The notes beneath the pieces are model-generated. The model had not been told where the DNA came from. It ran no database searches and worked only from the letters and a program-made list of their open reading frames with translations. Below are positions 233 through 15,615 of a stretch of DNA of 20,011 bases, piece after piece. Source of the stretch: a bacterium (GTDB taxonomy: Bacteria; Vulcanimicrobiota; Vulcanimicrobiia; Vulcanimicrobiales; SCRA01); assembly GCA_004298675.1 (NCBI GenBank), contig SCRI01000018.1:1-20011 (forward strand). The letters run 5' to 3'. Made by a program: the position numbers and the translations under genes. Position 1 is the first letter of the stretch, and every line of letters begins with the position of its first letter.

Positions 233-1252
233 ATGGAATTCGAACGAGCACTGGCCGAGGTGGAGTCCACCTTCGAGCAACGCTTGGCCGCCGCGAGCCG
301 CGACGCCGAAGTGGAGGAGCTGCGCATTGCCTATCTGGGGCGCAGCGGAGAGCTGACGCTCATGCGCCGTGGTATCGGCAAACTCCCCGCGGGGGAGCGC
401 CCTGCCGCGGGGCAGCGCATCAACGCCGTCGCGGACCGCATGGAGTTGCGCCTGGCATCGGCGCTGGAAACGTTGCGCGCCCACGGCCTGGAGCAGGCGC
501 TGCACGAACGCGTCGACGCCACATTCCCGGCGCAGGCGCGCCACGGCAGCATCCATCCCATCCGCCGCACGCTGGAAGACATCTGTAACTTCTTCGAGCG
601 GCGCGGCTATGGCGTGGTGGTGGGCCCCGAAGTCGAGACCGAATACCACAACTTCGACGCCCTGAACATCCCGCCCGACCATCCCGCGCGCGAAGGCTTC
701 GACTCGTTCTACCTTCCCGGTGGCCTGCTCTTGCGCACGCATACCTCGCCGATGCAGGTGCGCACGATGCAGGCGCACCAGCCGCCGTTGGCGATCGTGA
801 CGCCCGGCCGCTGCTATCGCCGCGACGCCCTGGACGCACGCCACTCGTTCGCGTTCCACCAGGTCGAGGGACTGGTGGTGGCCGAGGGCATCACGATGGC
901 GCACTTGAAGGGCACGATGGAGGCGATGTGCCGCGCGCTCTTCGGCCCAGCCCAGCGCGTGCGCTTTCGCCCGTCGTACTTCCCGTTCACCGAGCCCAGC
1001 GCCGAAGTCGACACCACCTGCCCCGGCTGTCGGGGCTTGGGATGCCGCACGTGCAGCGGCAGCGGATGGCTGGAGATCGGCGGCTCGGGCATGGTTCATC
1101 CCAACGTCTTTCGCGAAGTAGGGTACGACCCCGAACGCGTGACCGGCTGGGCCTTTGGCCTGGGGCCGGAGCGCATCGCGATGGTGCGCCACGGCATCGA
1201 CGACATCCGCACGTTCGTCGAAAACGAGCCCGCGTTCTTGGAGCAATTCTAA
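233..1252 (+). CDS. pheS: Phenylalanyl-tRNA synthetase alpha subunit
   Basis: Catalytic subunit of the cytoplasmic alpha2beta2 PheRS, which charges tRNA-Phe with phenylalanine. The 339-residue length is normal for bacterial PheS. The first ~90 residues are charged and helical, as in the tRNA-contacting coiled coil. The class II core follows: GPEVETEYHNFDALN (131-145), HTSPMQVRTMQ (170-180), the RCYRRD stretch (193-198) and the final GWAFGLGPERIAM (305-317) with the motif 3 arginine. Four cysteines in a CxxC...CxxC arrangement (263, 266, 271, 274) are typical of many bacterial PheS proteins and may hold zinc. The ATG at 233 has only a weak upstream gggatt but gives the expected N-terminus. The stop lies 4 bp before pheT, so the two are co-transcribed. 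Confidence 0.97.
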   Translation: MEFERALAEVESTFEQRLAAASRDAEVEELRIAYLGRSGELTLMRRGIGKLPAGERPAAGQRINAVADRMELRLASALETLRAHGLEQALHERVDATFPAQARHGSIHPIRRTLEDICNFFERRGYGVVVGPEVETEYHNFDALNIPPDHPAREGFDSFYLPGGLLLRTHTSPMQVRTMQAHQPPLAIVTPGRCYRRDALDARHSFAFHQVEGLVVAEGITMAHLKGTMEAMCRALFGPAQRVRFRPSYFPFTEPSAEVDTTCPGCRGLGCRTCSGSGWLEIGGSGMVHPNVFREVGYDPERVTGWAFGLGPERIAMVRHGIDDIRTFVENEPAFLEQF

Positions 1253-1256
1253 CCGT

Positions 1257-3626
1257 ATGCGCGTACCATTGGGTTGGCTCAAAGCCTACGTCGACGTCAC
1301 CGAGAGTGCCGACGAGGCGGCGGAGATCTTCGCCCGGCTCGGCTTCCCCGTCGACGCCGTCGAGCGCGCGCCGCGCGTCGAAGGCGTGGTGATCGGCGAG
1401 ATCGTCGCGCTCGAGAAGCACCCCAACGCGGACCGGCTGCTCGTCGGCACCATCAGCGTCGGCAATGGCGCTCCGCTAACCATCGCCACCGGCGCCACCA
1501 ACGTGGCGGTGGGACAGCGCATCCCGGTGGCCACCATCGGCTCGCACCTGCCGGAGATGAAGATCGAGCGGCGGACCATGCGCGGCATCGTCTCCGAAGG
1601 GATGATGTGCAGCGCGCGCGAGCTGGGCTTGGAGCCGGAGCACTTCGAAGACGGCATCATGATCCTCGACGGCGAGGCAGCGGTGGGCGCCAATGCCGTG
1701 GCCGCGCTGGGCTTGGCGCAGGCCGTGCTCGATCTCGACGTCACGCCCAACCGTCCCGACTGCCTCTCCGTGCTGGGCCTCGCGCGCGAATACGCGGCGG
1801 CGATGCGCCGCACGTTGCGCCTGCCGGAGCTGTATGCGGGGCCGTATGCCGCGCCGAGCGAGGTGCGCGTGGTGCTGGAAGGCGACGGCTGCAACCGCTA
1901 CGTCGCCCAGCGTTTCGAGAACGTGCGCGTGGGTGCCGCGCCGGCGTGGATGCGCGTACGTCTCTCGCTGGCGGGGCAGCGCCCCATCTCCAATCTCGTC
2001 GACATCTCGAACTACGTGATGCTCGAAGTGGGGCAGCCGCTGCACTTCTTCGACTGGGAGTCCGTGGCCGGCGGCACCATCATCGTGCGCAAGGCGCACC
2101 GCGGCGAGCATCTGCTCACGCTCGACGGCGTGGAACGCGAGCTGGACGAGCGCGTGCTGCTGATCTGCGACGGGGCCGGCCCCAGCGTCATCGCCGGCAT
2201 CCGCGGCGGCGAGCGCAGCGAGGTTAAAGAGAGCACGCGCAGCCTGCTGATGGAGTCGGCGAACTTCGACGGCCCCACCATCCGCCGCGGCTCGCTCTCG
2301 CTGGGCCTGCGCACCGACGGCTCGCTGCGGCACGAGAAGTCACTGCCGTTGTCGTTCGCGGATTTCGGCGCGGCGCGCGCCGCCAAACTGCTCGCGAACG
2401 AAGGCGCCACCATCAATGCGCCGCTGGCGACCGGTCAGCCGGTGCCGGCGCCGGCGCACATCGCCTTCCCCGTAGCACAAGTACCGCGGGTGTTGGGGCT
2501 CTCGCTGCCGCTGGAGCGCGTGGCTTCGAACCTTCAGGCCTTAGGCTTCGCCACGACACCCCTCAGCGGCGAGACGCTCGACGTCGAAGTGCCGCCGTGG
2601 CGCGCCGACGTTCACGAGAACGTGGACCTGGTGGAAGAGGTCGCGCGCATCGAGAGCTACGACGAGATTCCAAGCGAACTGCCGCCCATCGCGCAGCACG
2701 GCATCAACTCCGATGATTGGCACTTGGAGAGCGACATCGCCCATGCGCTGATGGACAGGGGCTACCGCGAGATCGTCTCGCTGCCGCTGCATTCGTCAGC
2801 GATCCTAGAGAAGTACCGCAACGCCGGCATCGAGCTGCCGCGCCCGCCGGTGGAGGTACTCAATCCGCTCTCCGAGGAGCAGCGCTGGCTGCGCTTCGCC
2901 ATCCTGCCGCTGATGCTGCAGTGGCTCTCGCGCAATTGTCAGGAGCTTCCACGCCGCGTCTTCGAGATCGGCCACGCGTTTCGCGGCGAGGCCCCCATCA
3001 CCGAAGAGACGATCGCGGGCATCATCTTCGCGCCCGCGGAGCGGCCAGAAAAAGACGAGCCGGTCTGGCGTGACCGCACGCTGCTGGAGTTCCGCGGCGA
3101 GATCGAGTCGCTGCTGCGCGGCCTCACAGGCATCTCGCCCAAGGTAGCGCAAGACGCCATCCAGGGGATGCATCCGGGAAAGACGGCCTCACTGCTGCTC
3201 GATCACGACAGCGTTGCGATGGTGGGGCGTGTCGATCCGCGTTTGTGCGCCACCTTCGAGGTGCCGCTCTCGACGTACTATGCTTTCCTGCGCGTGGACA
3301 AGCTGCCCGCGCGCAGCGTGGCCGCATACAAGCCCGTGCCGAAGTTTCCCGGTACCTCGCGCGATTTGGCGCTGCTGCTGGACGAGAACGTGCCCGCCGA
3401 AGCGGTCTTGGGCGCGGTGCTCCAGGCGCACGTACCGCAACTGGAGCGGGCGCGCCCGTTCGACGAGTACCGCGGCCCGCAGGTACCCGCCGGCAAGAAG
3501 TCGATGACGGTGCGCATCTGGCTACGTGAGCCTGAGTCCACGATCACCGACGCCATCGCCGATCGCGCCACCGCCAAGATCGTCGCGGCGCTGCGCGAGC
3601 GCGTCGGCGCCGAACTGCGCACCTGA
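1257..3626 (+). CDS. pheT: Phenylalanyl-tRNA synthetase beta subunit
   Basis: Beta subunit of PheRS, giving tRNA recognition and the editing of mischarged tyrosine. The ATG at 1257 yields 789 residues starting MRVPLGWLKAYVDV, the standard PheT opening. An in-frame ATG 34 codons earlier lies inside pheS and was not used. Domains in order: a tRNA-binding OB fold at about 39-150 (VIGEIVALEKHPNADRL), the linker motif DVTPNRPDCLSVLGLARE (161-178), the B3/B4 editing domain, B5, the catalytic-like core, and a C-terminal FDX-ACB anticodon-binding domain over roughly the last 95 residues (KFPGTSRDLALLLDE). No truncation is seen. The stop codon overlaps the cvpA start by one base (TGATG), so three genes are read as one operon. 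Confidence 0.97.
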   Translation: MRVPLGWLKAYVDVTESADEAAEIFARLGFPVDAVERAPRVEGVVIGEIVALEKHPNADRLLVGTISVGNGAPLTIATGATNVAVGQRIPVATIGSHLPEMKIERRTMRGIVSEGMMCSARELGLEPEHFEDGIMILDGEAAVGANAVAALGLAQAVLDLDVTPNRPDCLSVLGLAREYAAAMRRTLRLPELYAGPYAAPSEVRVVLEGDGCNRYVAQRFENVRVGAAPAWMRVRLSLAGQRPISNLVDISNYVMLEVGQPLHFFDWESVAGGTIIVRKAHRGEHLLTLDGVERELDERVLLICDGAGPSVIAGIRGGERSEVKESTRSLLMESANFDGPTIRRGSLSLGLRTDGSLRHEKSLPLSFADFGAARAAKLLANEGATINAPLATGQPVPAPAHIAFPVAQVPRVLGLSLPLERVASNLQALGFATTPLSGETLDVEVPPWRADVHENVDLVEEVARIESYDEIPSELPPIAQHGINSDDWHLESDIAHALMDRGYREIVSLPLHSSAILEKYRNAGIELPRPPVEVLNPLSEEQRWLRFAILPLMLQWLSRNCQELPRRVFEIGHAFRGEAPITEETIAGIIFAPAERPEKDEPVWRDRTLLEFRGEIESLLRGLTGISPKVAQDAIQGMHPGKTASLLLDHDSVAMVGRVDPRLCATFEVPLSTYYAFLRVDKLPARSVAAYKPVPKFPGTSRDLALLLDENVPAEAVLGAVLQAHVPQLERARPFDEYRGPQVPAGKKSMTVRIWLREPESTITDAIADRATAKIVAALRERVGAELRT

Positions 3627-4198
3627 TGCCCGCGGCCTTCCAGCATCTGGGTTGGCCCGACGTCGTTCTCGGCGCGCTGCTGCTCTTCGCGCTGCTCAAA
3701 GGCATCAAGCGCGGCGGCGTCCGCGAAGTAGGCGGACTGCTCGCCATCGCCGCGGCCATCGCCGCCGCCATCCTCTACCGCGGGCAGCTCGACCAGAACA
3801 TCGGCTGGATGACGCACGCCAGCGCCGGCGTCAACCGCCTGCTCGGCGTGCTGACGGCCGCGGTGCTCGGCTACGTGGTCGCGCTGCTCGTCGTCAGCGT
3901 CATCGACCGCGTGATGCACCTGCCCGTGCTAGGCACCGGCAACGCCCTCATCGGCGGCGCTATCGGCCTGGCCAAAGCCGCCGTGCTGCTATGGGCCGTC
4001 CTCTACGTCGCGCTCTTCTTCCCGCTCCCCACCGGCATGCGCGCCGATCTCGCGCGCTCGCCCGTCACGCTCTTCCTCACGTCGCCCAACGCCCGCGTCG
4101 ACCACGGTCTGCAAACCATGCTCCCGTCGGTCGTCGAACCCTACGCGCACCCGCTCTTCCAGCGCCACACCCTGCATCGTACCGCCACCGGCTGGTAA
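3626..4198 (+). CDS. cvpA: CvpA family membrane protein
   Basis: A 190-residue inner-membrane protein with four hydrophobic segments at about 11-27, 36-51, 72-93 and 107-131. The stretch GTGNALIGGAIGLAKAAVLLW (103-123) is the conserved CvpA signature region. The family was named for colicin V production in E. coli and is linked to envelope homeostasis and stress tolerance; its biochemical role is unsettled. The ATG overlaps the pheT stop by one base with no separate ribosome site, pointing to translational coupling. In Firmicutes a cvpA homologue (yshB) also follows pheT with zapA between, so the position supports the call. The C-terminal ~55 residues are polar and probably soluble. Confidence 0.85.
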   Translation: MPAAFQHLGWPDVVLGALLLFALLKGIKRGGVREVGGLLAIAAAIAAAILYRGQLDQNIGWMTHASAGVNRLLGVLTAAVLGYVVALLVVSVIDRVMHLPVLGTGNALIGGAIGLAKAAVLLWAVLYVALFFPLPTGMRADLARSPVTLFLTSPNARVDHGLQTMLPSVVEPYAHPLFQRHTLHRTATGW

Positions 4199-4213
4199 CT
4201 ACTCGCGAACGTC

Positions 4214-4252
4214 GCGTGACGCATAAGTCCTTGCGCGAGGAATGCGCCACGC
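4214..4252. terminator. Long hairpin between convergent cvpA and aminotransferase genes
   Basis: gcgtgacgcat (4214-4224) pairs with atgcgccacgc (4242-4252) over 11 positions with one mismatch. The intervening 17 nt contain a further 4-bp stem (tcct/agga, 4228-4231 with 4238-4241). A perfect 12-bp palindrome, ctgacgcgtcag, lies at 4260-4271 and includes the aminotransferase stop. There is no T-tract on either side. The position between convergent genes suggests a bidirectional transcript end. Confidence 0.45.
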
Positions 4253-4267
4253 TCGCTCGCTGACGCG

Positions 4268-5377
4268 TCAGTGGGCGATGGGGGCGAAACCGTGGGTGGC
4301 GAGGGATTCGCCGAGGGCGGCGAGGGCGCGCTGGACGTCGGCGGGGGCGATGGCGCCCATCGTGCCCATGCGGAAGATCTTGCCTTTGAGCTCGCTCTGG
4401 CCGCCGGCAAGCACGATGCCGTGGCGCTCGCGCAGCGTTTTGAGCACGGCGGAGGCCTGCACGTGCTCGGGCACGCGCATCGTCACCACCGTGGGCGAGG
4501 CGTAGCGGGTGTCGCCGAAGAGCTCAAGGCCCATGGCATGCACGCCGGCACGGATGGCGGCGGCATTGGCGGCGTGGCGCGCGTGCACGTTGGCCGCGCC
4601 CTCGGCATGGTAGCGATCGAGCGCAACGTCGAGCGCGAAGACCTGCGAGATGGGCGGCGTCCACGGCGTCTGGCCGTCGGCGCCGAACTCGCGCGCCTTG
4701 GCGAAGTCGAAGTAGAAGCGCGGCATCTTCGCACGCGCCACGGCATCCCATGCGCGCGCCGAGAGCGCCACGAACGCGAGACCGGGCGGCGCCGCCAGCA
4801 CCTTCTGCGACGCGCTGACCACGGCGTCGAAGCCGAGCTCGTCGATGGGCATGCGCGAGGCACCCAAGCCGCTCACGCTATCCACCACGCGCAGCGCGGG
4901 GTGATCCCGCATGACACGCGAGAGCGCCTCCATGTCGTTCTGCACGCCAGTTGAGGTCTCGTTATGCGTCAGCAAGATGCCGGCGATGCGTTGCTCGCGA
5001 TCCTGACGCAAGCGCCCTGCTAGTCGTGCGGGGTCGAGCCCATGGCCGGGCTCGGTGTCCAGGATCTCCACGTCGGCGCCATAGGTACGCGCGATGGCGG
5101 CAAGCCGCTTGCCGAAGTTGCCGATGGGGCACGAGAGCAGCAGATCGCCGGGGGAGAAGAGATTGGCCACGGCGGCCTCCAAGCCGCCGGTACCGCTAGA
5201 GCCCAGCACCAGCACTTCGCCGGAGGTCTCGTAGACGCGCGCGAGCTTCTCGCGCACGGCCAACAACGTCGCCGCGAAGCGCTCGCCGCGATGATTGACC
5301 ATCGGTTCGGCCATCGCGGCCAGGACCTCGGGAGCACAGGTCACCGGACCCGGTATGAAGAGCAGATCTCCGGGCAT
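4268..5377 (-). CDS. Class V aminotransferase, alanine-glyoxylate / serine-pyruvate type
   Basis: A 369-residue fold-type I PLP enzyme, the size usual for the alanine-glyoxylate/serine-pyruvate aminotransferase group (also PucG and the 'soluble hydrogenase 42 kDa subunit' branch). Visible landmarks are FIPGPVTCAPEVL near the start, the phosphate-cup region SSGTGGLEAAVANL (60-73), the PLP-ring aspartate in VVDSVSG (164-170) and the Schiff-base lysine K192 in VVSASQKVLAAPPG. The likely reaction is amino transfer between alanine or serine and glyoxylate or pyruvate; the exact substrates cannot be read from sequence. A strong ribosome site (aaggaga, 7-8 nt before ATG at 5377) supports the start. 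It lies 31 bp downstream of lon on the same strand, so it may be expressed with the heat-shock unit. Confidence 0.85.
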   Translation of the reverse strand: MPGDLLFIPGPVTCAPEVLAAMAEPMVNHRGERFAATLLAVREKLARVYETSGEVLVLGSSGTGGLEAAVANLFSPGDLLLSCPIGNFGKRLAAIARTYGADVEILDTEPGHGLDPARLAGRLRQDREQRIAGILLTHNETSTGVQNDMEALSRVMRDHPALRVVDSVSGLGASRMPIDELGFDAVVSASQKVLAAPPGLAFVALSARAWDAVARAKMPRFYFDFAKAREFGADGQTPWTPPISQVFALDVALDRYHAEGAANVHARHAANAAAIRAGVHAMGLELFGDTRYASPTVVTMRVPEHVQASAVLKTLRERHGIVLAGGQSELKGKIFRMGTMGAIAPADVQRALAALGESLATHGFAPIAH

Positions 5378-5408
5378 CGTCTTCTCCTTAGCGGGGCAAC
5401 CGAACGCG

Positions 5409-7859
5409 CTAACGCTTGCGCGCGGGGGAATTGCGCCGTGCCGGCCCGCGTTTCACGCTGGCGCGGCCATTACGGCGGCTCTTGAGCGATACCACGTTCG
5501 CCGCGCTCGCGGCGGTTTCCACCGCCGGCACGATCGGCGCACCCAGCGCAACCGTGAACGCACCCGCCAGATCGTCGAGCGGCACGAACGACATCGACTC
5601 GCGTACCTCCTTGGGAACGTCGTCGAGATCGACCTCGTTGCGCCGCGGCAGCATCACTTTGCTGATGCCCGCGCGCTTCGCGCCCAGCACCTTCTCTTTG
5701 ATGCCGCCCACCGGCAGCACTTGCCCGGTGAGCGTGATCTCGCCCGTCATCGCGAGGTTGGGATCGACGCGCCGCCCGGTCAGCAGCGAGGCGATCGCCG
5801 TGGCCATTGCCACACCCGCCGAGGGGCCGTCCTTGGGCACGGCACCGGCCGGCACGTGGACGTGCAGATCGTTCTTTGCGAAGAAGTCGTCCGGCAATCC
5901 CAGGTCCGCCGAGTGCGCGCGCAGGAACGAGACGGCGGCCGTCGCGCTCTCCTTCATCACGTCGCCGAGCTGACCGGTCAGCGTGACGGCGCCCTTGCCC
6001 GGCATCGCCGTGGCCTCGATGAAGAGGATGTCACCGCCCACCGGCGTCCAGGCCAAGCCCGTCGCCACGCCCACGGTGGCCACGCGCTTCTTCACTTCGT
6101 TGAAGAACCTGGGCTTACCCAAGTAGTCCACCAGCGACTCCGCGCTGATCTTCTCCTTGTAGCTAGGCGTCTCCGCGACTTTGCGCGCCACCTTGCGCAG
6201 CACCGTGCCGATCTCGCGCTCCAAGTTGCGCACGCCGGCTTCACGCGTGTAGTCGTTGATGATCGAACGCAGAATCCGGTCGCTCAACCGCGCCTGCGTG
6301 GAGCGCAAACCGTTGACGGCCTGCTGCTTCTTGACCAGGAAGCGCTTGGCGATCTGCAGCTTCTCCAGCTCCGTGTAGCCGTGGAGCGGGATGATCTCCA
6401 TGCGGTCGCGCAGCGGCGGCGAGATCGTCTCCAACTGATTGGCCGTGCAGATGAAGAGCACTTCGGAGAGGTCGAAGGGCAGGTCCAGGTAGTGGTCGCG
6501 GAAGGTCGAGTTCTGCTCCGGATCCAGCACTTCCAGCAGCGCCGACTGCGGATCGCCGCGGAAGTCCGCGCCCACCTTGTCGATTTCGTCGATCATCATC
6601 ACCGGATTCTTCGTTCCGGCGTCGCGCAGCGCGCGCACGATCGTGCCCGGCATCGCGCCGATGTAGGTGCGACGATGGCCGCGGATCTCCGCTTCGTCGC
6701 GCACGCCGCCGACGGAAAGGCGCACGAACTTGCGGCCCATCGCCTTGGCGATGGATTGCCCCAGTGACGTCTTGCCGACACCCGGCGGTCCCACGAAGCA
6801 GAGGATGGGGCCGGTCATCTTCTTCTTGAGCTTGCCGACGGCCAGGTACTCGACGATGCGGTCTTTGACTTTCTCGAGGTCGTAGTGATCCTCGTCGAGG
6901 ATCTTGCGCGCCTGCGCGATGTCGATTTGATCGGTCGTCTGCACGTTCCACGGCAGCTGCGTCAGCCAGTCCAGATAGGTGCGCACGACGCTGTATTCCG
7001 GCGAAGCGCTGGGCACGCGCTGCAGGCGGTCGAGCTCGCGATCGGCGGCCTTGCGGACCTCTTCGGGCATGCCGGCTTCGTCGATCTTCTTGCGCAGCTC
7101 GTTGGTCTCGGCTTGCTGAGGATCGACCTCGCCCAACTCCTCTTGGATGGCGCGCAACTGCTGACGGAGATAGAACTCGCGTTGGTTCTTCTCCATCTCT
7201 TTCTGGATGTCGCTCTGGATCTTGTGGCCCAGCTCCACCACCTCCAGCTCCTTGGTCAGGAGCATGGTGAGGCGGCGCATGCGCTTGGCGGTATCGCGCT
7301 CCTCCAGGATCGCCTGCTTCTCGGCAACGTCGAGGCGCATGGTCGAAGCCACGAAGTAGGTGAGGAGGTTGGGGTCCGCGATATTCTGGACCTCCATCTC
7401 CATCTCGCGCGGCACCTGCGGCAGGTAGCTGAGCAGGCGCTGGAAGAGCGTGGTGAGGTTGCGGTGCATCGCGACCAGCTCCTCGGTCTCACGCGTCTTG
7501 TCCGGCAGCTCCACCACGTCGGCCTTGAAGTACGGCTCGACTTGCGTGAACGAGGATATCTCGAAGGCCTGCGTGCCGCCGACGATGCAGCGCAGCGTGC
7601 CGTCGGGCACCTTCAGCATCTTCTGAATGATGCCGATGGTGCCGATGCGGCGCAGGTCTTCCGCGGTTGGCGTCTCGACTTCGCGATCCTTGAGCGCGAC
7701 GAATCCGATGGGGCGGCCGTCCTTGAGGGCCTCCTCCACCAACTGAATGCCCGTCTTCTTCACGACCGCCAGGGGCAGGACCGTGTTGGGGAAGAGCACG
7801 GCTTCCTGCAGCGGCAGAATGGCGAGGGCTTGGTGCGCAGTTTCTTGCTTTGCTGGCAT
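5409..7859 (-). CDS. lon: ATP-dependent protease Lon (LonA type)
   Basis: An 816-residue cytosolic AAA+ serine protease that degrades misfolded and regulatory proteins; the length is normal for LonA. The N-terminal LAN substrate domain begins [19 protein letters not shown] and spans about 12-200, followed by a helical linker. The AAA+ module has Walker [10 protein letters not shown] (357-365), Walker B MMIDEID (421-427) and the arginine-finger region. The protease domain carries the catalytic serine S680 in [12 protein letters not shown] and the lysine K723 in [14 protein letters not shown]. The last ~30 residues are a basic, low-complexity tail rich in R, K and A. The ATG at 7859 lies 5 bp after the hsp20 stop with no close ribosome site, so translation probably depends on hsp20 reading. 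Confidence 0.97.
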
Positions 7860-7864
7860 CTGTG

Positions 7865-8299
7865 TTAGACCGGCATCCTTCGAATGGTCATGCGGAGTTC
7901 GGTGTGTATGATCGGAGCGAGTTCGCGATCGCGCGCGATGGGGAGGCTGATGGTGAGGATGCCGTCACGGTAGACGGCGCTCACCTCACCCTCCTCGATG
8001 GGGGCGGGTAGGAGAATCTCCTTGGCAAACTCGCCGTGGCCGATCTCCTTGAGCAGGAGCGTGCCACGGCGGGCCTTGATCGTGGGCTCGCGCTTCCCGG
8101 CGATGTAGAGCCGCCGGCCCTCCACCGCAACACGAATGTGCTCGGGTTGGACGCCGGCAAGCTCGACTTCGACGATTAACGTGGCGCCGTCGTCGGTGAC
8201 GTAGGCATCCGCGTTGGGAACGAAGCCGCCGAAGCGCCTGGGGCCGCTCATGCCGGAGAACACGTGGTCGAACTCCCGAAAGAAATCGTCGTAGCTCAT
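7865..8299 (-). CDS. Small heat-shock protein, Hsp20/alpha-crystallin family
   Basis: A 144-residue ATP-independent holdase chaperone that keeps unfolding proteins soluble for refolding or proteolysis. The alpha-crystallin domain runs from about 29 to 121 (NADAYVTDDGATLIVEVELAGV through YRDGILTISLPI), ending with the family's conserved G-I-L strand. The N-terminal arm is short (about 28 residues, with F-rich SYDDFFREFDHVF), and the C-terminal extension is about 22 residues. The first gene of an hsp20-lon-aminotransferase run, it has a CIRCE-like operator starting 16 nt upstream of its ATG. No Shine-Dalgarno sequence is visible there. The pairing with lon makes functional sense as a hold-or-degrade unit. 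Confidence 0.92.
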   Translation of the reverse strand: MSYDDFFREFDHVFSGMSGPRRFGGFVPNADAYVTDDGATLIVEVELAGVQPEHIRVAVEGRRLYIAGKREPTIKARRGTLLLKEIGHGEFAKEILLPAPIEEGEVSAVYRDGILTISLPIARDRELAPIIHTELRMTIRRMPV

Positions 8300-8315
8300 C
8301 TAGATATCGCGCTCG

Positions 8316-8342
8316 TTAGCACTCGGCGTTTTCGAGTGACAG
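8316..8342 (-). promoter_or_regulatory. CIRCE-like operator (HrcA site) before hsp20-lon
   Basis: The + strand reads TTAGCACTC (8316-8324), a 9-nt spacer, then GAGTGACAG (8334-8342). The CIRCE consensus is TTAGCACTC-N9-GAGTGCTAA: the first half matches 9/9 and the second 6/9, with exact spacing. HrcA binding to CIRCE classically represses groE and dnaK operons until heat stress. The site ends 16 nt from the hsp20 start, so it probably covers the transcription start and early leader. I could not identify a convincing -35/-10 pair for hsp20. Confidence 0.75.
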
Positions 8343-8402
8343 CCCTTGAAACCCCGCCGCTTGGCTGATGGATGCGGCCGGTGCGTCCGATGAAGAGAAC
8401 GT

Positions 8403-8921
8403 ATGAAACCCGCTCAACCCGTCTACCCGTCCGCGGAGGAGTTCGCGCGCTTCTTGGGCGACCTGCGAGGCTGGAGGCATAAGACCCTCACGCTCGACGA
8501 GACCGTCAGCATGCTCGTCTCCCTAGCCAACCATCTGGTCGATAAGATCCAGCCGGCCACCGCCCAGGCCGTGGCCGACGCGGCGCACCGCCTCGCACCC
8601 GACCGCCCCGAGCCGCTCAACGCCCTGGGGCGGGCGTACGCCCAGAGCAGGAAGATGGGCGAGGCGGTCCAGGCGTTCGAGCGGGCCCTGGAGATCAATC
8701 CCAACCCCGCCTACGTGGCCAACCTGGAGCAGGTGGCGCGCAGCTACCCGGGCGGCGAGCCGGAGTTCTGGACCGCTACCCGCGCCGCCGTCCCTGACGC
8801 CAGCGCCGAGCAGGCGCTGAAGTTGCTCACCGACGAGCAGAGGCATTCCGTGGAGCAGTACCTGGCGGCGGAGAAGGCGCGCAAGGTGCTGGCGAAGCTG
8901 CGCACCGCGCGGCGCGCGTAA
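8403..8921 (+). CDS. TPR-containing protein upstream of tfuA
   Basis: A 172-residue, cysteine-free, soluble protein without a signal peptide. One clear tetratricopeptide repeat occupies about 70-103: EPLNALGRAYAQSRKMGEAV and then AFERALEINPN have the family's W/L-G-Y-A-F-A-P spacing. Helical stretches on both sides (35-65, 106-170) may be degenerate repeats. TPR proteins bind other proteins or peptides; no catalytic residues are seen. A gaagag element 5 nt before the ATG supports the start. The stop codon is followed after one base by the GTG of the TfuA-like gene, so the two are almost certainly co-translated. This suggests a helper or scaffold for the TfuA/YcaO chemistry, which is inference from context only. 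Confidence 0.8.
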   Translation: MKPAQPVYPSAEEFARFLGDLRGWRHKTLTLDETVSMLVSLANHLVDKIQPATAQAVADAAHRLAPDRPEPLNALGRAYAQSRKMGEAVQAFERALEINPNPAYVANLEQVARSYPGGEPEFWTATRAAVPDASAEQALKLLTDEQRHSVEQYLAAEKARKVLAKLRTARRA

Positions 8922-8922
8922 T

Positions 8923-9618
8923 GTGACGCCGTCAGACGCGGCGCCGGCTCCAAGGGTAGCCATCTTCGCGGGGCCGTCGCTCCCGCCGGAGGATCGCCCT
9001 CAGATTCCGGACTTCGTATATCTTCCGCCGGCCAGCCGTGGCGATGTGGAGGCGGCAGCCGAGCGCTACGATGCCATCGTCTTGATCGACGGCGTCTTTC
9101 ATCACGACCTCGCGCCGTCTCCGAAGGAGTGTTTGGTGGCCTGCCGCCGCGTGCCGACGATCGGCGCGGCCAGCATGGGAGCGCTGCGGGCGGCCGAGTG
9201 CTGGCCCTACGGATTGCGGCCGATAGGCGCGATCGCGCGCTGGTACATCCGCGAGGTCATCGACGGCGACGACGAGGTGGCGGTGTTGGTGCACCCGGAG
9301 ACGCACCACGCTTTGACGGTGCCGTCGGTGAACGTTCGCTATGTGGCATGGCTAGCGCGCCGGCGCGGCCTGCTGAACGCCGCGGAGGCCGAAGCCTTCA
9401 TCATCGGCGCCCGCAACGTGTACTACATGGACCGCTCCTGGTCGAGCGCCCTGGAATTCGTACCAGCGGACCGCCGCGACCGTATCCGCGAGATCGCGGA
9501 GCGCGAAGGCGACCTGAAGCGTTGGGATGCGCGGTTGGCCCTGAGGGCAAGTGCCAAGCTTACTGAAGCAGGCGGCTTGATGCATCCATTCCCCGAAATG
9601 CCTGCCTCGTTCGCCTAG
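8923..9618 (+). CDS. TfuA-like protein (YcaO partner)
   Basis: A 231-residue protein with the TfuA core. Visible motifs are AIFAGPSL (13-20), YLPPASRGD (33-41), IDGVF (55-59), GAASMGALRAAE (81-92) and the acidic DGDDEVAVLVHPE (114-126). TfuA was first described in the trifolitoxin cluster of Rhizobium. It assists YcaO enzymes in installing backbone thioamides, probably by handling the sulfur donor; homologues do this for methanogen McrA and for some RiPPs. The start is GTG at 8923, since the ATG at 8921 runs straight into a stop. No ribosome site is seen, so coupling to the TPR gene is likely. The cognate YcaO gene is not adjacent but on the opposite strand, about 3.1 kb away. Confidence 0.88.
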   Translation: MTPSDAAPAPRVAIFAGPSLPPEDRPQIPDFVYLPPASRGDVEAAAERYDAIVLIDGVFHHDLAPSPKECLVACRRVPTIGAASMGALRAAECWPYGLRPIGAIARWYIREVIDGDDEVAVLVHPETHHALTVPSVNVRYVAWLARRRGLLNAAEAEAFIIGARNVYYMDRSWSSALEFVPADRRDRIREIAEREGDLKRWDARLALRASAKLTEAGGLMHPFPEMPASFA

Positions 9619-9672
9619 CGAAGGCAGTGCGCTATCCCCCGCCGAATCTCGGATCTGCTACCAACCCACGTC

Positions 9673-9678
9673 TATGAT
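9673..9678 (+). promoter_or_regulatory. Possible -10 box before the small ORF
   Basis: TATGAT (5/6 to TATAAT) lies in the 74-bp gap after tfuA. No good -35 is found 16-18 bp upstream. It would place a start of transcription near 9685, so the small ORF may be expressed independently of the tfuA message. Such early initiation would clip the aaagagg ribosome site and favour the ATG at 9687 instead of 9693. Confidence 0.3.
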
Positions 9679-9692
9679 GAAAGAGGATGCAC

Positions 9693-9998
9693 ATGGACCT
9701 CCACGAGGCTCAATCTATTGCGTCACGCTACATCGCCCACATCATGGCCAACCCCGACGAACGGAAGACGTTCGAAACCTATGCGACGTCGGACGATTAT
9801 CATGCACCGATGGCGCAGCACATGCAGCGTCTGCTCGGCTTAGCTACCCCGCCGTCTAAAGACGACCTCGCCAAGATTCGTGAGGCGGGCGATACGCTTT
9901 TCCAGCCATTCGCCGCCGCACTCGAGCACCACTCACCCGGGCAGTTCGAAATGTATCAGCCCGCTAATCTTTGCTTTGTCAAGAAGACTACGACCTAG
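9693..9998 (+). CDS. Small protein beside tfuA, candidate YcaO-TfuA substrate
   Basis: I do not recognise this 101-residue family. The first ~80 residues look like three amphipathic helices (about 2-19, 22-48, 56-80). The remaining tail is less ordered and ends YQPANLCFVKKTTT, holding the only cysteine (C94) and three terminal threonines. A folded leader with a short tail containing Cys/Thr is how some RiPP precursors are built, and the neighbours are a TfuA and a YcaO. The precursor role is therefore a reasonable but untested inference; a small regulator or binding protein would look similar. The start at 9693 has aaagagg six bases upstream; an in-frame ATG at 9687 sits directly on that site. 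The 3' end overlaps the convergent regulator gene by 11 bp. Confidence 0.65.
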   Translation: MDLHEAQSIASRYIAHIMANPDERKTFETYATSDDYHAPMAQHMQRLLGLATPPSKDDLAKIREAGDTLFQPFAAALEHHSPGQFEMYQPANLCFVKKTTT

Positions 9999-12762
9999 TC
10001 GCCGCCCACGCATTGAGGCCGGCTGAGATCTGCCATCTCGCGACCTGAACGCGCGAGGTGACGTTTAGCTTTCTGAAGATGCTGGCAAGGTGCGCCTCCA
10101 CGGTACGCTCGCTCAAGAAGAGCGCCACCGCGATCTCCCGGTTGGTCTTTCCCTCGGCAACCAGACCGGCAATCTCCTGTTCCCTGAACGTCAAGCCCTC
10201 CTTTGCCTCGCGCCTCTTGGTCGGCTTTTTCTTGCCTCCGACAACGCGCGCGGGCGGCCTTATGTCAAGATCACGGAGCATCGCGCGCTCCACGGCATTT
10301 TCGGCCCCAACAATGCTATGCGCATAGGCGGCGTAAAAAGTGGCGCCCAGTCGCGCGAAGACGCCCGCGGCTTCTTCCAGGCGCAACTTCCCACTGCCCA
10401 CTCGAAGGGTCTCGGACGCCCAACCTGTCATCAGTAGATTGTGAGCTCTATGCCACGGTGAGCGCTCTTCAATCGTCTCACCTTGGGCGAGCATCTCCAG
10501 CAATCTAACGTCGCCGGCGCGTTGAGCGTAGAGCACGGCGAGGGCGGGGCACGAGGGCAGCCACCAAGACGCAGGCTTCGTCAGCGTCGAGCGGACCGCA
10601 TCGATGCGCCGCGCTGCTTCACGGCTGTCGCGTGCTACTTCGCCGGCCGCCCATGCTACGACGAGAAAGTCGCGGACGCTGGGATCTGGCAGACGCATCG
10701 CGCGCTCAACCTCTCGATTAACCTCCGCATCGAACACCGTCCCTCGATCAGTGAAGCCGGCGATCATCGCCGCAAGAGCGCACATCTCCCCGCGCGACGT
10801 ATCGGGGGCGGTCGCAAGTTCAACAGCGCTCAGCGCCTCCAAGACAGCACCGAAGTTACCACAGGCAATCTCGAGACTCAAGCTCCAATAGAGCATGCGG
10901 AGAAACCCCGTCCGCGCCCATTGAACCCGCGCCACCCTCAAGCGATCCGGGACGAGCTCACGCGCGCCGGTGACGCCGAACTCGTAGAGTTTCAACAGAA
11001 ACTCGTGCATCATGCATCCAATACCGAGATGTGTATTTCGCGAATCGGCCCGTACACGAGCGACATTGAGGGCCTCCAACGCCTCCTGATGGCCGAGGAG
11101 CCGCTGATCCATCATGAGATCCGCGAGCGCGAAGTTCGTCACGGCTGCATCCGACAGCTCCAGCGACTCCGCGACTCGCAACGCGTTCAGTGCATCCACC
11201 ACCTCCGTATCGACCCGGTCCGCGCTGATATAAGCCCAAATTGATCGAATGTCCCAGCGATCGCGCTCGTCCTCCATCGATCGAAGGAGACTCTCGTAGA
11301 TATGCCTGGCCCGCTCCCGATCGTGAAAGTACATGACAACCGTCCATACCAGAGCCATCGCGAGCGGGCCGAACCCACTCTTGATACCGAGCCGGCGCCC
11401 TTCTTTGATGGCTTGATCGAGTATGCTGAATTGCAGCTCCGGCGGCCGGTTCAGGGCTCGCAGAGCCATACCGTACTGGTTATAAAACGCCGCATGCTCC
11501 TCAATCGGCGGCTTTCTCACCTCGAGCGCCCGCGAGAAGCAGGCCTCGGCCGTATGCCAGGCGCTGGAGGCGATGGCCGCACGCGCGATCTTTAGGAGAT
11601 ACTCGTACTCGACGTCCTCCTCGCCGCAGGCGCGCGCATGGTAGACGATACGCTCGGCGAACTGCTCATCGGCGTGTGGCTGGCCCAGCAGAGCTCGAAC
11701 GATCTTTTGATGAAGCCCCTCGGGGAAGCGCACGATTGACCGCACGGCATCGCAGACGAGCGCATGAGAGAAGCGGAAGCTTCCTTCCTCCGCGACGAGA
11801 AACGAACCCACCAAGTGCGCGAGGTGATTCATCGCCACCTCGCTGCTCTGCGCCATGACCGCGGCGGCTTTGAAGCTCAACGGCTGCTCCATGAGCGAAA
11901 GGATCTCGAGATACGTCCGCACGTCGGGGTCGAGGCGCTTCATCTGATCCGACACGACGGCCCGCACGCTTTCACGCAACCCGTCGACGCCGTTGACATG
12001 CTGTGCGCGCGCCTCCGACGCCAGCGAGACGAGCGCGTACGGGAGTCCTTGAGAGCACTCGACGATCGATCCGATGACGGCGTCGCCGGCATCGGGGTAG
12101 ACCTGCGTGACGAGGGAGCGCGCGGCATCTCGCTCGAGATTCTCGAGGGCGATATCCTGCGGCACCGGTGCCTGCTGCTCATGCTCGGCGCTCGGGCGCC
12201 GTGCGAGGACGATCAAGAGCGGATAGACTGCCAAATCGGCGGCGGCGAGCTGCAGCGTCCTCAGACTCTCGCCGTCGATCCACTGGATATCGTCAACGAC
12301 GATGACGACGGGCAGATCGACGAGCATGCCTTCGAGCAGCGCCACGAATGAGCGCTGAAAGCGGAAGATATCCGCCTCAGCGGCGATCTGCTCCACGCCA
12401 AATCGCTCCGCAAGAACGAGGTCGCGGGCGAAGAGGGCTTGTTCGAGGCCGCTTGCGTACCGGCGCATGGGCTCGATCCCGACTTGATCGACGATCCGGT
12501 GGAGCAAACGGCGGGCGGTGGCTAACGGAACGCTCGACTGGCTCTCGTGAGCAGCCGCCTCGAAGATCGTACGTCCGCGTTCCGCGGCATCCGAAGCGAG
12601 CTGTGCCAGCAGCGCTGTCTTCCCCTGCCCGGAGACGCCGACCAGCGAGATCGTCTGCGCCACACGCTCGCGCGATACCCGCTCGAGTGCGTCGAGCAAC
12701 GCCTTTCGCGCGCCCTCACGGCCTACCAGCGGCTGACCGTTGTGCGTGGATGGCAGGCTCAT
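9988..12762 (-). CDS. LAL-type transcriptional regulator: AAA ATPase plus LuxR HTH
   Basis: A 924-residue cytosolic protein with the layout of large ATP-binding LuxR (LAL/MalT-like) regulators. The N-terminal STAND ATPase has Walker A GVSGQGKT (42-49) and Walker B VVIVVDDIQWID (152-163), preceded by the usual LVGRE motif (12-16). A long helical middle, about 350-820, probably forms TPR-like sensor repeats. The C-terminus has a LuxR/GerE HTH at about 856-910 (GLTFREQEIAGLVAEGKTNR, then LSERTVEAHLASIFRKL). The family activates pathway genes when a ligand or partner releases the ATPase. The ATG overlaps the ycaO stop by 4 bp, so the regulator is translated with the modification enzyme and is the best candidate controller of this locus. 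The inducing signal cannot be read from sequence. Confidence 0.93.
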   Translation of the reverse strand: MSLPSTHNGQPLVGREGARKALLDALERVSRERVAQTISLVGVSGQGKTALLAQLASDAAERGRTIFEAAAHESQSSVPLATARRLLHRIVDQVGIEPMRRYASGLEQALFARDLVLAERFGVEQIAAEADIFRFQRSFVALLEGMLVDLPVVIVVDDIQWIDGESLRTLQLAAADLAVYPLLIVLARRPSAEHEQQAPVPQDIALENLERDAARSLVTQVYPDAGDAVIGSIVECSQGLPYALVSLASEARAQHVNGVDGLRESVRAVVSDQMKRLDPDVRTYLEILSLMEQPLSFKAAAVMAQSSEVAMNHLAHLVGSFLVAEEGSFRFSHALVCDAVRSIVRFPEGLHQKIVRALLGQPHADEQFAERIVYHARACGEEDVEYEYLLKIARAAIASSAWHTAEACFSRALEVRKPPIEEHAAFYNQYGMALRALNRPPELQFSILDQAIKEGRRLGIKSGFGPLAMALVWTVVMYFHDRERARHIYESLLRSMEDERDRWDIRSIWAYISADRVDTEVVDALNALRVAESLELSDAAVTNFALADLMMDQRLLGHQEALEALNVARVRADSRNTHLGIGCMMHEFLLKLYEFGVTGARELVPDRLRVARVQWARTGFLRMLYWSLSLEIACGNFGAVLEALSAVELATAPDTSRGEMCALAAMIAGFTDRGTVFDAEVNREVERAMRLPDPSVRDFLVVAWAAGEVARDSREAARRIDAVRSTLTKPASWWLPSCPALAVLYAQRAGDVRLLEMLAQGETIEERSPWHRAHNLLMTGWASETLRVGSGKLRLEEAAGVFARLGATFYAAYAHSIVGAENAVERAMLRDLDIRPPARVVGGKKKPTKRREAKEGLTFREQEIAGLVAEGKTNREIAVALFLSERTVEAHLASIFRKLNVTSRVQVARWQISAGLNAWAATRS

Positions 12763-14072
12763 GAGATGACCCTCCGGAGCGCGGCGCCGATACGCCCATC
12801 CACCATGCCAGTCTCAAGGCCCGGCACGATCACGCGGGCAACGGAGATCGGAAGATCGGACGGCGAGAGATCGACCACGACCACCCGAGGTGCCCCGGCA
12901 GCGTCGACGGCATCGACCAGGGCGCGCAGCTCTCGCCCGAGATCCGAGCACGAGCGATCGGAGATGCTGTGCAGCGTCACGACCTGCGCGGGAGCGTCGA
13001 AATACCAGCGGCCGTGCGGCAACGTTGAGCGCCGGCGCCCATGATTTCCGTAACACGTCCTGGGATCGTCCTCGCGCAGCATATCTTCCCGTGCACCCTG
13101 AAAGTCGACAAGCCGCCCTTGCACAGCCTCGGTGATTGCCCGCATTGCCGCGTGCTCCGGCGACCACGAGCATCCCAGGCCGGCATGAGCGAGCGGCGGA
13201 TCGACTCCCAGCTGCCGGATGCTCGCGATGATGCACACAGGAAGGCCCGGCTCCTCGAGCGCCAACACGCGAATGCTCAGACCCGCGGCTTCGACCTCTG
13301 CAATCAGCGAATCGACGGCCGCACAGCCCGTCGGCAATCGGATCTCCTTGGCCACCGCATCGTCCACGAGCGAGGAGAAGTCGGGCTCGACTCCGATGCG
13401 GCGAGCGAACGCCTCGAGCAGGAAACGCGGGCGCAGGTGAGCACGTGCATGGGTCATCGACCATACGTGGCGCTCCACCAACTCGAAAAGCGCGTGGTAG
13501 ACGGCTTCGGTTAAGTTGTTGCCGGAGGCCAGGCCGTTGGTCGACGAAGTATCGAACGTCCGCGGGCCGTTCCAGGGGCAGCGTACCAGCGCCAACGGTA
13601 CCGGCACTACCTCTGCGCTGATCGCGTCGATGCCGGCGACGAACTGGCACGGGCGGTCCCAAGCTTCTTCGTAGAGTCCGAGGCCCTTGAGATCGATGCC
13701 ACCACCAATGTCGCACGGGCGCAGACTGACGGTAGGGGGATCGAACCGCGCGCAAATCTGCCGCTCCGTCGCCTCCATGACCGCGCTGGCTAGCGCGTGC
13801 TCGTATGTCGCGCCCTTGCCGCTGTAGTTGCTGATGACGTCGTCGGAGTCCGGAACGATCGCGCAGATCGTCGGGATCGCAACGCGGTCGAGGCGCGTGG
13901 CGTCGCTGATGCGTGTGATACCATAGCGCCTGCGAAGCTCGGGAACCAACTCCAACGTCCGGGCAAGAGGAACGCAGCGATCGTGAGAGCCCGCAGCCTT
14001 CGGCGACTCGGCGAAAAGCTGCGCGAGATCGATCGGCGGAACGCTGGATAGCGACTGTGTAACGGCCACCAT
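12759..14072 (-). CDS. YcaO-family ATP-dependent cyclodehydratase / thioamide synthetase
   Basis: A 437-residue YcaO enzyme. Family ATP/Mg-binding motifs are visible: SGKG (84-87), the E-A-x-E-R element (100-104), NGLASGNNLTEAVYHALFELVER (179-201) and the later GLGCSWSPEHAAMRAITEAVQGR (299-321). YcaO proteins phosphorylate the backbone amide oxygen, giving azolines with a Cys/Ser/Thr nucleophile or thioamides with sulfide. The C-terminus (RVIS) lacks the PxPxP tail common in azoline-forming members. With a TfuA in the window, thioamidation is the likelier chemistry, though not proven. No fused E1-like or leader-binding domain is present. The ATG at 14072 has a weak ribosome site. It forms an operon with the LAL regulator and diverges from a substrate-binding protein gene across a short spacer. 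Confidence 0.93.
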   Translation of the reverse strand: MVAVTQSLSSVPPIDLAQLFAESPKAAGSHDRCVPLARTLELVPELRRRYGITRISDATRLDRVAIPTICAIVPDSDDVISNYSGKGATYEHALASAVMEATERQICARFDPPTVSLRPCDIGGGIDLKGLGLYEEAWDRPCQFVAGIDAISAEVVPVPLALVRCPWNGPRTFDTSSTNGLASGNNLTEAVYHALFELVERHVWSMTHARAHLRPRFLLEAFARRIGVEPDFSSLVDDAVAKEIRLPTGCAAVDSLIAEVEAAGLSIRVLALEEPGLPVCIIASIRQLGVDPPLAHAGLGCSWSPEHAAMRAITEAVQGRLVDFQGAREDMLREDDPRTCYGNHGRRRSTLPHGRWYFDAPAQVVTLHSISDRSCSDLGRELRALVDAVDAAGAPRVVVVDLSPSDLPISVARVIVPGLETGMVDGRIGAALRRVIS

Positions 14073-14099
14073 CGTACGGAGTCATTTCCCGCAAAGCCT

Positions 14100-14127
14100 G
14101 TACCGGCCTGCAGGACGAGCCGGATAC
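14100..14127. promoter_or_regulatory. Inverted repeat in the ycaO / binding-protein divergent spacer
   Basis: gtaccggc (14100-14107) pairs with gccggatac (14119-14127) across an 11-nt centre, with one bulged A at 14124. It occupies the middle of the 58-73 bp gap between two divergent starts. It is a plausible two-way operator, for instance for the LAL regulator, but GC-rich dyads arise easily here. No clear -35/-10 boxes were found. Confidence 0.3.
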
Positions 14128-14145
14128 GGCGTGAAGAGCGCGGCC

Positions 14146-15558
14146 ATGCGTCGTCCTGCCTTCATCGCCGGTCTAACCTCGGCGCTTCTGGCACCATCAG
14201 CAGTGCGTGCAGCGCCGGGCGTGCTGCGCACGGCCACCATCCATGGCCTTGACGACCCCGATCCATACATCGGCACCACGCCGCTCTCCCCGATCATCGC
14301 GTGGGCCTACGCCGACGGGCTCGTTGCAACCTCAACCGGCGGCCGGATCGTACCGGCTCTGGCGGCGTCCCTTCCCGATCGCTCCGCGGACGGACTGGTC
14401 TATCGCTACACTCTTCGTCGCGACGTTCGTTGGCACGATGGCGCGCAACTACGCGGCCAGGACGTGCAAACGGCCTTCTCCCGCCTCAGCAAGCGCGCCG
14501 ATCTTCGCTCCACGCCGCCGTTTGACACCGTTGCCGACATCGCGGCAACCGACCACACGATAACTGTCCGGCTTCGCCGGCCGTTCGGAGCGTTCGTCGA
14601 GCAATTCTTCGGACCACGCGGAGCTTTACCACTGCCACTGGTTCGGCCGGGCCACATCGGTACGGGACCGTTTCAAGTTCAGCGCGTGCAGCCAAATATT
14701 TCCGCCGTGTTAACACGCGCAGGCGGGGGGCCACGCGGAGCAGCAGCGCTGGGCGAGCTACGGATCGAAACGATTCCAGACAAGAACTCTCTGCTCGTGG
14801 CCTACGAGTCCCATGAGATCGACGTCGCCATCTATCCGCCCACGGAGACCGCCGCTGCGTATGCCAAAGCCGGCGCGCGCATCTACCGCCAAGATGGCAC
14901 GACGCTCATGATCCTCGCTAATTGCGCCGCTGGGCCCATGGCGGACGCCGCATTGCGGCAGGCCGTCTTCGCATCGATCGATCGCCGCGAGATCGCGCAC
15001 GCCGCCTTCGGCGAGTGGCTGCAGCCTTCGGCGTTGCTCCCCGAGCCGCGGCTCCCAGAGTTGACAACCGCACGCGCGTTGCTAGCCCGGACGCGGCCGC
15101 ATCTGCGCATCATCGCGACGGAGGGTCACCCCGGCCAAGTTGCGCTTCTGGTTCAGCAGATGCTTCAAGACGCGGGAGCCTCCGTGGAGATCGTCCACAT
15201 CTCGATTCCGCAGTTCTTCTCTCCCGATGGTCCGGTTCACCGCGGATCGTACGATCTCACGCTGTGGTTCTCGGACCTGGCGACCCCGGATCTCCGCCCG
15301 ATCCTTGGCTGCAGAGCACCGCAAAATGTGTCGGGATGGTGCGCGCCCGCGTTCGACGCGCTCGAAGCCAGCGCTGCCGGAACGCGCGGAGCCGCCTCGG
15401 CCACCGCCCTCACGCATGCCGATGCTCTTCTCAACGACGCGGCTCCGATGCTGCCGCTCGGACGATTCCAATTGGCGATCGCGTCTAACCCAGACGTCTC
15501 TCTCTTCGTCGACGAGCACGCCCCGTTATTCATGCACGTGGAGCGCTGGCGTACCTAG
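14146..15558 (+). CDS. Family 5 extracellular solute-binding protein (peptide/nickel type)
   Basis: A binding protein of about 470 residues for ABC-type uptake of oligopeptides, nickel or similar ligands. The hallmark stretch YTLRRDVRWHDG, followed by DVQTAF, is clear, as are IVPALAASLPD and the C-terminal ALTHADALLNDAAPMLPLGR. The N-terminus MRRPAFIAGLTSALLAPSAVRA is a signal peptide with an AxA-like cleavage site and no lipobox cysteine, so it is a secreted or periplasmic protein rather than a lipoprotein. I chose ATG 14146 with gaagag 7 nt upstream; an in-frame GTG at 14131 adds five residues. At 470 residues it is shorter than the typical 500-540. No permease or ATPase gene lies nearby. 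Divergence from ycaO suggests it handles the modified peptide, a metal or a precursor. Confidence 0.85.
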   Translation: MRRPAFIAGLTSALLAPSAVRAAPGVLRTATIHGLDDPDPYIGTTPLSPIIAWAYADGLVATSTGGRIVPALAASLPDRSADGLVYRYTLRRDVRWHDGAQLRGQDVQTAFSRLSKRADLRSTPPFDTVADIAATDHTITVRLRRPFGAFVEQFFGPRGALPLPLVRPGHIGTGPFQVQRVQPNISAVLTRAGGGPRGAAALGELRIETIPDKNSLLVAYESHEIDVAIYPPTETAAAYAKAGARIYRQDGTTLMILANCAAGPMADAALRQAVFASIDRREIAHAAFGEWLQPSALLPEPRLPELTTARALLARTRPHLRIIATEGHPGQVALLVQQMLQDAGASVEIVHISIPQFFSPDGPVHRGSYDLTLWFSDLATPDLRPILGCRAPQNVSGWCAPAFDALEASAAGTRGAASATALTHADALLNDAAPMLPLGRFQLAIASNPDVSLFVDEHAPLFMHVERWRT

Positions 15559-15615
15559 CGATCGCGCGCACTCGTAGCTGGCGCTCTACGCCGGGTAAAG
15601 GAGCAATGAGCCGAT

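Follow-up and report, generated by a model that had tools for sequence, protein, structure and literature searches.

The 101-residue protein encoded at positions 9693-9998 of the window, the whole 20,011-nucleotide stretch of DNA analysed here, founds an undescribed family of small proteins, and is very probably the precursor of a YcaO-TfuA modified peptide (RiPP). The family occurs in Eremiobacterota, a poorly known phylum of soil bacteria. Its genetic unit takes in a convergent STAND-LuxR regulator and, in the window's genus, a peptide-binding protein. In a second genus, g12, the C-terminal core of the precursor and the sensor region of the regulator were replaced jointly in one DNA segment. 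YcaO-TfuA pairs are widespread, and few have a known substrate. What is new is the possible signalling role; the system itself is a variant of thioamidated RiPP systems.

Results

Reading frame and family

A first-pass annotation of the DNA had claimed a 101-residue open reading frame (ORF) directly after tfuA. The ORF (101 aa plus stop) is present at 9693-9998 on the + strand and starts 74 bases past the tfuA stop (9618). A second in-frame ATG lies upstream, at 9687. The ATG at 9693 was taken as the start because the likely ribosome-binding site AAAGAGG (9680-9686, + strand), read directly from the sequence, is well spaced for 9693 only and because the homologues begin at the same methionine. 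The ORF is real. It is not a chance frame, since the alignment search recovered the family, at member E-values between 1e-40 and 1.6e-8, in 28 of the 149 Eremiobacterota genomes. The annotation had recognised no family, and no Pfam or NCBIfam model scored above its cut-off. Promoter and terminator scans gave no signal exceeding that of shuffled sequences.

The 149 Eremiobacterota genomes were searched with the single sequence and then with profiles. The single-sequence search returned relatives of approximately 100 aa adjoining YcaO, and the profile searches gave 35 members in the loci of the 28 genomes. Weak single-sequence matches (e.g. L008, L009, L018, and L021) were dropped as overlapping frames of other genes. 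G037 (E 0.0095) was dropped as a member after being lost with the refined profile. A scan of the genome contigs with the single precursor protein as the query gave no match.

TfuA is present in 29 and YcaO in 46 of the 149 genomes. The family and TfuA occur together in 26 genomes, the family alone in 2, TfuA alone in 3, and neither in 118 (Fisher P 2e-23). The corresponding counts for the family and YcaO are 28, 0, 18, and 103 (P 2e-18); every family genome carries YcaO. In the two family genomes without TfuA, the locus contigs end inside YcaO. The three genomes with TfuA but no family member (G005, G122, and G132) have much more distant TfuA and YcaO proteins. A family member in a genome lacking both YcaO and TfuA, named in the annotation as contrary evidence, was looked for across the 149 genomes and not found.

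Three further observations concern distribution. G005 encodes a Nif11-type precursor with a GG site (L145:1501-1788) between its distant YcaO and TfuA, which represents another family in the same phylum. A congener of the window's genome, G030 (approximately 90% complete), lacks YcaO, TfuA, and the precursor; hence, the system appears to be accessory. An alphaproteobacterial TfuA (L094, 36% identical) was the only non-Eremiobacterota relative from the TfuA scan, and the L094 locus yielded no small-family member.

Gene neighbourhood

In the window's genus, a TPR protein is encoded upstream of TfuA (8403-8921, + strand, domain match). The tfuA gene follows directly from a GTG start (8923-9618, + strand; PF07812, E 3.4e-28; PDB 6xp8, E 4.6e-29). 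Convergent with the precursor gene is that of a 924-aa STAND (AAA_16) LuxR regulator (9988-12762, - strand, domain match), which overlaps the precursor 3' end by 11 bases. It is followed by YcaO (12759-14072, - strand; PF02624, E 1.2e-51; MJ1094/6pe3, E 6.3e-33) and an SBP_bac_5 oligopeptide-binding protein (14131-15558, + strand; PF00496, E 8.8e-40). An ornithine cyclodeaminase-like gene lies after the SBP_bac_5 gene, with its start codon at 15616.

The order common to many loci is TfuA, YcaO, methyltransferase, the small gene, and the convergent regulator. TfuA and YcaO are often fused, forming a single ORF in many relatives. A STAND regulator stands beside the small gene in nearly every locus; it is of the LuxR type or, in a few loci, carries an N-terminal Xre-type HTH. 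Among the PADLOC models, no anti-phage defence match was obtained beyond an overlap of the LuxR HTH with a CARF model, and a defence-system reading was dropped because only this shared domain had been matched.

Leader and core

The annotation had described a helical, leader-like body followed by a short tail. The AlphaFold2 model (mean pLDDT 83.5) agrees with this description: four helices span residues 3-80, in blocks mostly of pLDDT 83-96, and the end is disordered, with residues 95-101 below 50. Residues 1-80 (9693-9932, + strand), the conserved part of the alignment, are assigned to the leader, a predicted four-helix domain. Residues 81-101 (9933-9995, + strand) form the linker and C-terminal core, which is disordered in the model, variable, and repeated in a G096 paralogue. 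They end in YQPANLCFVKKTTT (9954-9995), which holds the sole cysteine of the protein and three threonines, as annotated; the threonines are consecutive. A fold search gave no PDB match better than a Foldseek E of 2.4 or a Z of 4.1, a result that is uninformative for a small helical bundle.

Family members consist of a conserved helical leader (approximately 75-80 residues) followed by a tail that is short, variable, disordered, and mostly hydrophobic. The proposed comparison of leader and tail conservation gave a mean pairwise identity of 27% for the body versus 13% for the tail, with one representative per genus and two for the window's genus. In nine g12 loci, the nonsynonymous difference per site was 0.063 for residues 1-74 versus 0.20 for residues 85-92. 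The usual tail pattern is V-G, two to four hydrophobic residues, and then MQ, and glycine occupies the core column in 26 of 33 tails. The window tail, ANLCFVKKTTT, lacks the core glycine and resembles the tails of G057 (MNLIIFTTR) and G079 (MNLVVVSTT); its modification site is therefore not predicted. Conservation of the terminal MQ merely through the overlap with the regulator 3' end was considered and rejected, since the non-overlapping copies 1 and 2 of G056 keep MQ. The G096 repeats, likewise free of this overlap, keep Q.

Tandem paralogues near other YcaO-TfuA genes, which the annotation had suggested seeking, occur three in a row in G056 and two each in G057 and G061. One G061 paralogue has two cores. 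At the end of a G096 paralogue, the 14-residue unit DAPSHVGxxFVVQ occurs five times, with a period of 42 bp. This five-repeat gene (L123:8072-8563) lies between TfuA and the first YcaO; next come another YcaO and a precursor with a single core. The conserved leader, the variable tail, the tandem and multi-core copies, and the YcaO-TfuA linkage support the original proposal of a precursor with a C-terminal core.

A divergent cassette in the window's genus

The precursor, regulator, YcaO, and SBP genes lie in a 6.1-kb cassette (9534-15615) that was delimited by DNA comparison with the congener G029. Identity to G029 is 84-86% over 515-9533, is then lost, and returns at 83% from 15616; the right edge is the start codon of the cyclodeaminase-like gene. 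The only DNA similarity inside the cassette is a 64% patch in YcaO. Gene order is identical in the two genomes. Protein identities are 94% (Lon), 90% (TPR), and 87% (TfuA) in the left flank; 31% (precursor), 29% (regulator), 50% (YcaO), and 31% (SBP) in the cassette; and 85% (cyclodeaminase) and 95% (GroEL) in the right flank. Conservation of YcaO is similar to that of TfuA in other genera; thus, the divergence belongs to the cassette and not to YcaO evolution generally.

Joint replacement of core and sensor

In g12, the loci of G066 (L111) and G069 (L113) share 95.4% DNA identity along a 3.7-kb stretch that ends at base 221 of the precursor gene, in codon 74, where the leader stops. Past this codon there is no similarity for about 1.55 kb, followed by 92.5% identity in the NTPase; the swap as a whole was located between codon 74 and a point approximately 1.77 kb downstream. 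The replaced segment comprises the core together with two parts of the regulator, its HTH and its sensor region. Identity between the two regulators is 87-93% in residues 121-360, 17-38% in residues 361-780, and 57% in the HTH. The NTPase, leader, TfuA, and YcaO are kept across the swap. Further alleles, another core with another sensor, occur in G061. Across ten g12 loci, for which about two independent swaps are counted, core and sensor distances correlate with r 0.89 (partial r 0.85 given NTPase and leader; Mantel P 0.005).

The edges of the swap, at the leader/core and NTPase/sensor junctions, are as expected from selection for a matching core and sensor. The joint replacement may partly reflect the adjacency of core and sensor in the DNA, that is, linkage and recombination without direct recognition.

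Uptake genes

SBP_bac_5 genes occur near the regulator or YcaO in five genomes (G000, G029, G031, G073, and G086; the last four carry the same gene as the window), and OPT transporter genes in another five (G033, G087, G088, G096, and G097). These uptake genes are usually divergent from the regulator or YcaO. The OPT genes (L124:3439-5433, L122:3740-5839, L121:14370-16364, L098:12508-14478, and L123:15418-17412) are mostly divergent from and directly adjacent to the STAND regulator of the cluster. Two unrelated uptake proteins at the same position suggest a common need, peptide import. Uptake genes are absent from many loci, and the g12 loci have neither SBP_bac_5 nor OPT.

Discussion

The family, its linkage to YcaO-TfuA, the leader/core anatomy, the tandem and multi-core copies, the TfuA-YcaO fusion, and the joint core-sensor replacement, all read in the sequences, can be brought together in one scheme. 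The YcaO-TfuA pair would bind the precursor and exchange the oxygen of at least one backbone amide in the core for sulfur. The methyltransferase of the relatives would probably methylate the product, and the core would be cut off from the leader. The resulting hydrophobic thioamide peptide would bind the convergent STAND-LuxR regulator as its ligand, and the SBP_bac_5 or OPT protein would carry it back into the cell. We consider this scheme of a modified precursor, a cleaved core, sensing by STAND-LuxR, and uptake probable as a whole. Counting against it, the loci yielded no recognisable dedicated protease or exporter, many of them (g12 included) have no uptake gene, and the window tail is without the core glycine. 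The steps of the scheme differ in strength. Cleavage of the core and its release from the leader are likely, judging from the repeated cores and tandem copies. Sensing of the modified core by the regulator, suggested by the joint replacement, is an evenly balanced proposition. Secretion and re-uptake of the peptide, to which the uptake genes point, are proposed tentatively, and a full pheromone cycle with re-uptake stands at about the same level or slightly above. A thioamidated pheromone with a cytoplasmic STAND-LuxR receptor, in which a single DNA segment carrying core and sensor is exchanged while the enzymes stay constant and new communication groups arise, is a possibility that we place somewhat below even.

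The strongest alternative is that the RiPP product is an antimicrobial or metal-binding peptide, that the STAND-LuxR protein is merely the cluster regulator, and that uptake recovers the peptide or its metal complex. Uptake proteins of the OPT and SBP_bac_5 types would also suit a metallophore. Thioamidated peptides of known activity are, moreover, cytotoxins or antibiotics (PMC8120280, PMC6511847). Against these points, no immunity gene or dedicated exporter was recognised in the loci, and replacement of core and sensor together, with leader and NTPase kept, would be unexpected if the regulator sensed something other than the product. The exchange of the core together with the sensing half of the regulator suggests a signal rather than an antibiotic only. 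We therefore regard this alternative as unlikely, though a serious competitor.

The same exchange would fit a protein that is never cleaved and acts inside the cell as a signalling partner of the STAND regulator, docking through a tail that is thioamidated without being detached. The leader is a predicted folded domain and no dedicated protease was recognised in the loci, both of which agree with such a partner. However, a precursor with five cores in tandem is typical of released peptides, as are several paralogues in a row, and the uptake genes beside the regulator also speak for release. An uncleaved partner is improbable, and a released core remains the preferred reading.

With respect to the reaction, the McrA glycine thioamidation pair provides the best curated models for both enzymes, each below the equivalog cut-off: the window TfuA scores 148.4 bits with NF033432 (cut-off 235.2) and the window YcaO 192.6 bits with TIGR03266 (cut-off 365). 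Scores below the cut-off are expected with a different substrate. The window YcaO aligns to MJ1094 (6pe3) over the characteristic motifs, and the TfuA aligns to 6xp8. Many YcaO proteins are cyclodehydratases (PMC12455567), and the one cysteine and three threonines of the window tail (LCFVKKTTT) could suggest azoline rings at these residues without a thioamide. The first-pass annotation had placed weight on these side chains. This weight was misplaced: in 11 of 33 tails, the final nine residues contain no C, S, or T. Ring formation is thus excluded as the general reaction, but thioamidation of the backbone does not depend on any given side chain. The constant presence of TfuA in the system and the McrA models, although below their cut-offs, also point away from azolines. 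Azoline formation alone thus has little probability, and backbone thioamidation of the core is favoured as the likely reaction. That the small protein is an accessory subunit of YcaO-TfuA (for recognition, scaffolding, or sulfur transfer) instead of a substrate is highly improbable: strict co-occurrence with YcaO and the predicted folded domain would suit a subunit, but such a subunit would not need a tail with greater variability than the leader, with duplications inside single proteins, and with different versions in one cluster.

To our knowledge, most large MalT-like STAND regulators have no known inducer. If the present reading is true, it would supply a concrete ligand class for them. 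If the regulator senses the core, the system would pair a STAND receptor with a thioamide peptide signal, a combination for which we found no precedent in the literature searched, and the natural swaps would already constitute a specificity test. The precursor family is well bounded and has many natural core variants and repeats, which make it suited to co-expression.

Supplementary tables aside, where an unlabelled entry is possible, the genome-mining papers PMC8120280 and PMC9259500 contain no description of the precursor family, its leader, or the core-sensor exchange. The former names no Eremiobacterota; the latter deals with other RiPPs of the phylum and mentions neither YcaO nor TfuA. 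As in thioamidated RiPP systems of the YcaO-TfuA type, YcaO and TfuA are encoded together beside a precursor with a conserved leader and a variable C-terminal core. The thiovarsolin clusters of Actinobacteria encode the VarA precursor, the YcaO VarY, and the TfuA VarT; these three are enough to make the thioamidated peptide, and the precursor family ranges from no repeats to five imperfect core repeats (PMC6511847). The present system likewise has TfuA and YcaO beside a precursor family with single-core and five-core members. It differs in its long, predicted folded leader, its different hydrophobic core, the methyltransferase of many loci, the obligatory STAND regulator, and its host phylum, Eremiobacterota.

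Nif11-leader precursors with YcaO-TfuA (PF07862; PMC8120280) also have a helical N-terminal leader and a C-terminal core, but the small family lacks a GG cleavage motif. Only 2 of 33 members match PF07862 at all (best E 0.0089), and none reaches the Pfam gathering score. In a profile comparison with Nif11, the in-register match had P 0.0022 and outscored 200 column shuffles; homology is not claimed, because helical windows of the STAND regulator, which are unrelated, reach scores as high. Precursors with nitrile hydratase-like leaders (proteusins; PMC12455567) resemble the family in an unusually long (about 81 aa), folded leader, a short core, and a YcaO enzyme. The leader is, however, modelled as all-helical here, and the proteusin YcaO is azoline-forming and works without TfuA. 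None of the 33 members matched an NCBIfam model, although the nitrile hydratase-like leader model was possibly outside the library. Archaeal McrA thioamidation (PMC5589413) shares with the present system the closest curated enzyme models and, in most cores, the conserved glycine. McrA itself is not involved here, and the substrate is a small variable protein.

The ComQXPA pherotype loci of Bacillus, in which pre-peptide, modifying enzyme, and receptor diverge together (PMC4408185, PMC4008528), are comparable by analogy only. None of the ComQXPA proteins, among them the isoprenyl transferase ComQ and the membrane histidine kinase ComP, is related to the YcaO-TfuA, STAND-LuxR, and SBP proteins described here. 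By this analogy, the switching of core and sensor would resemble pherotype switching.
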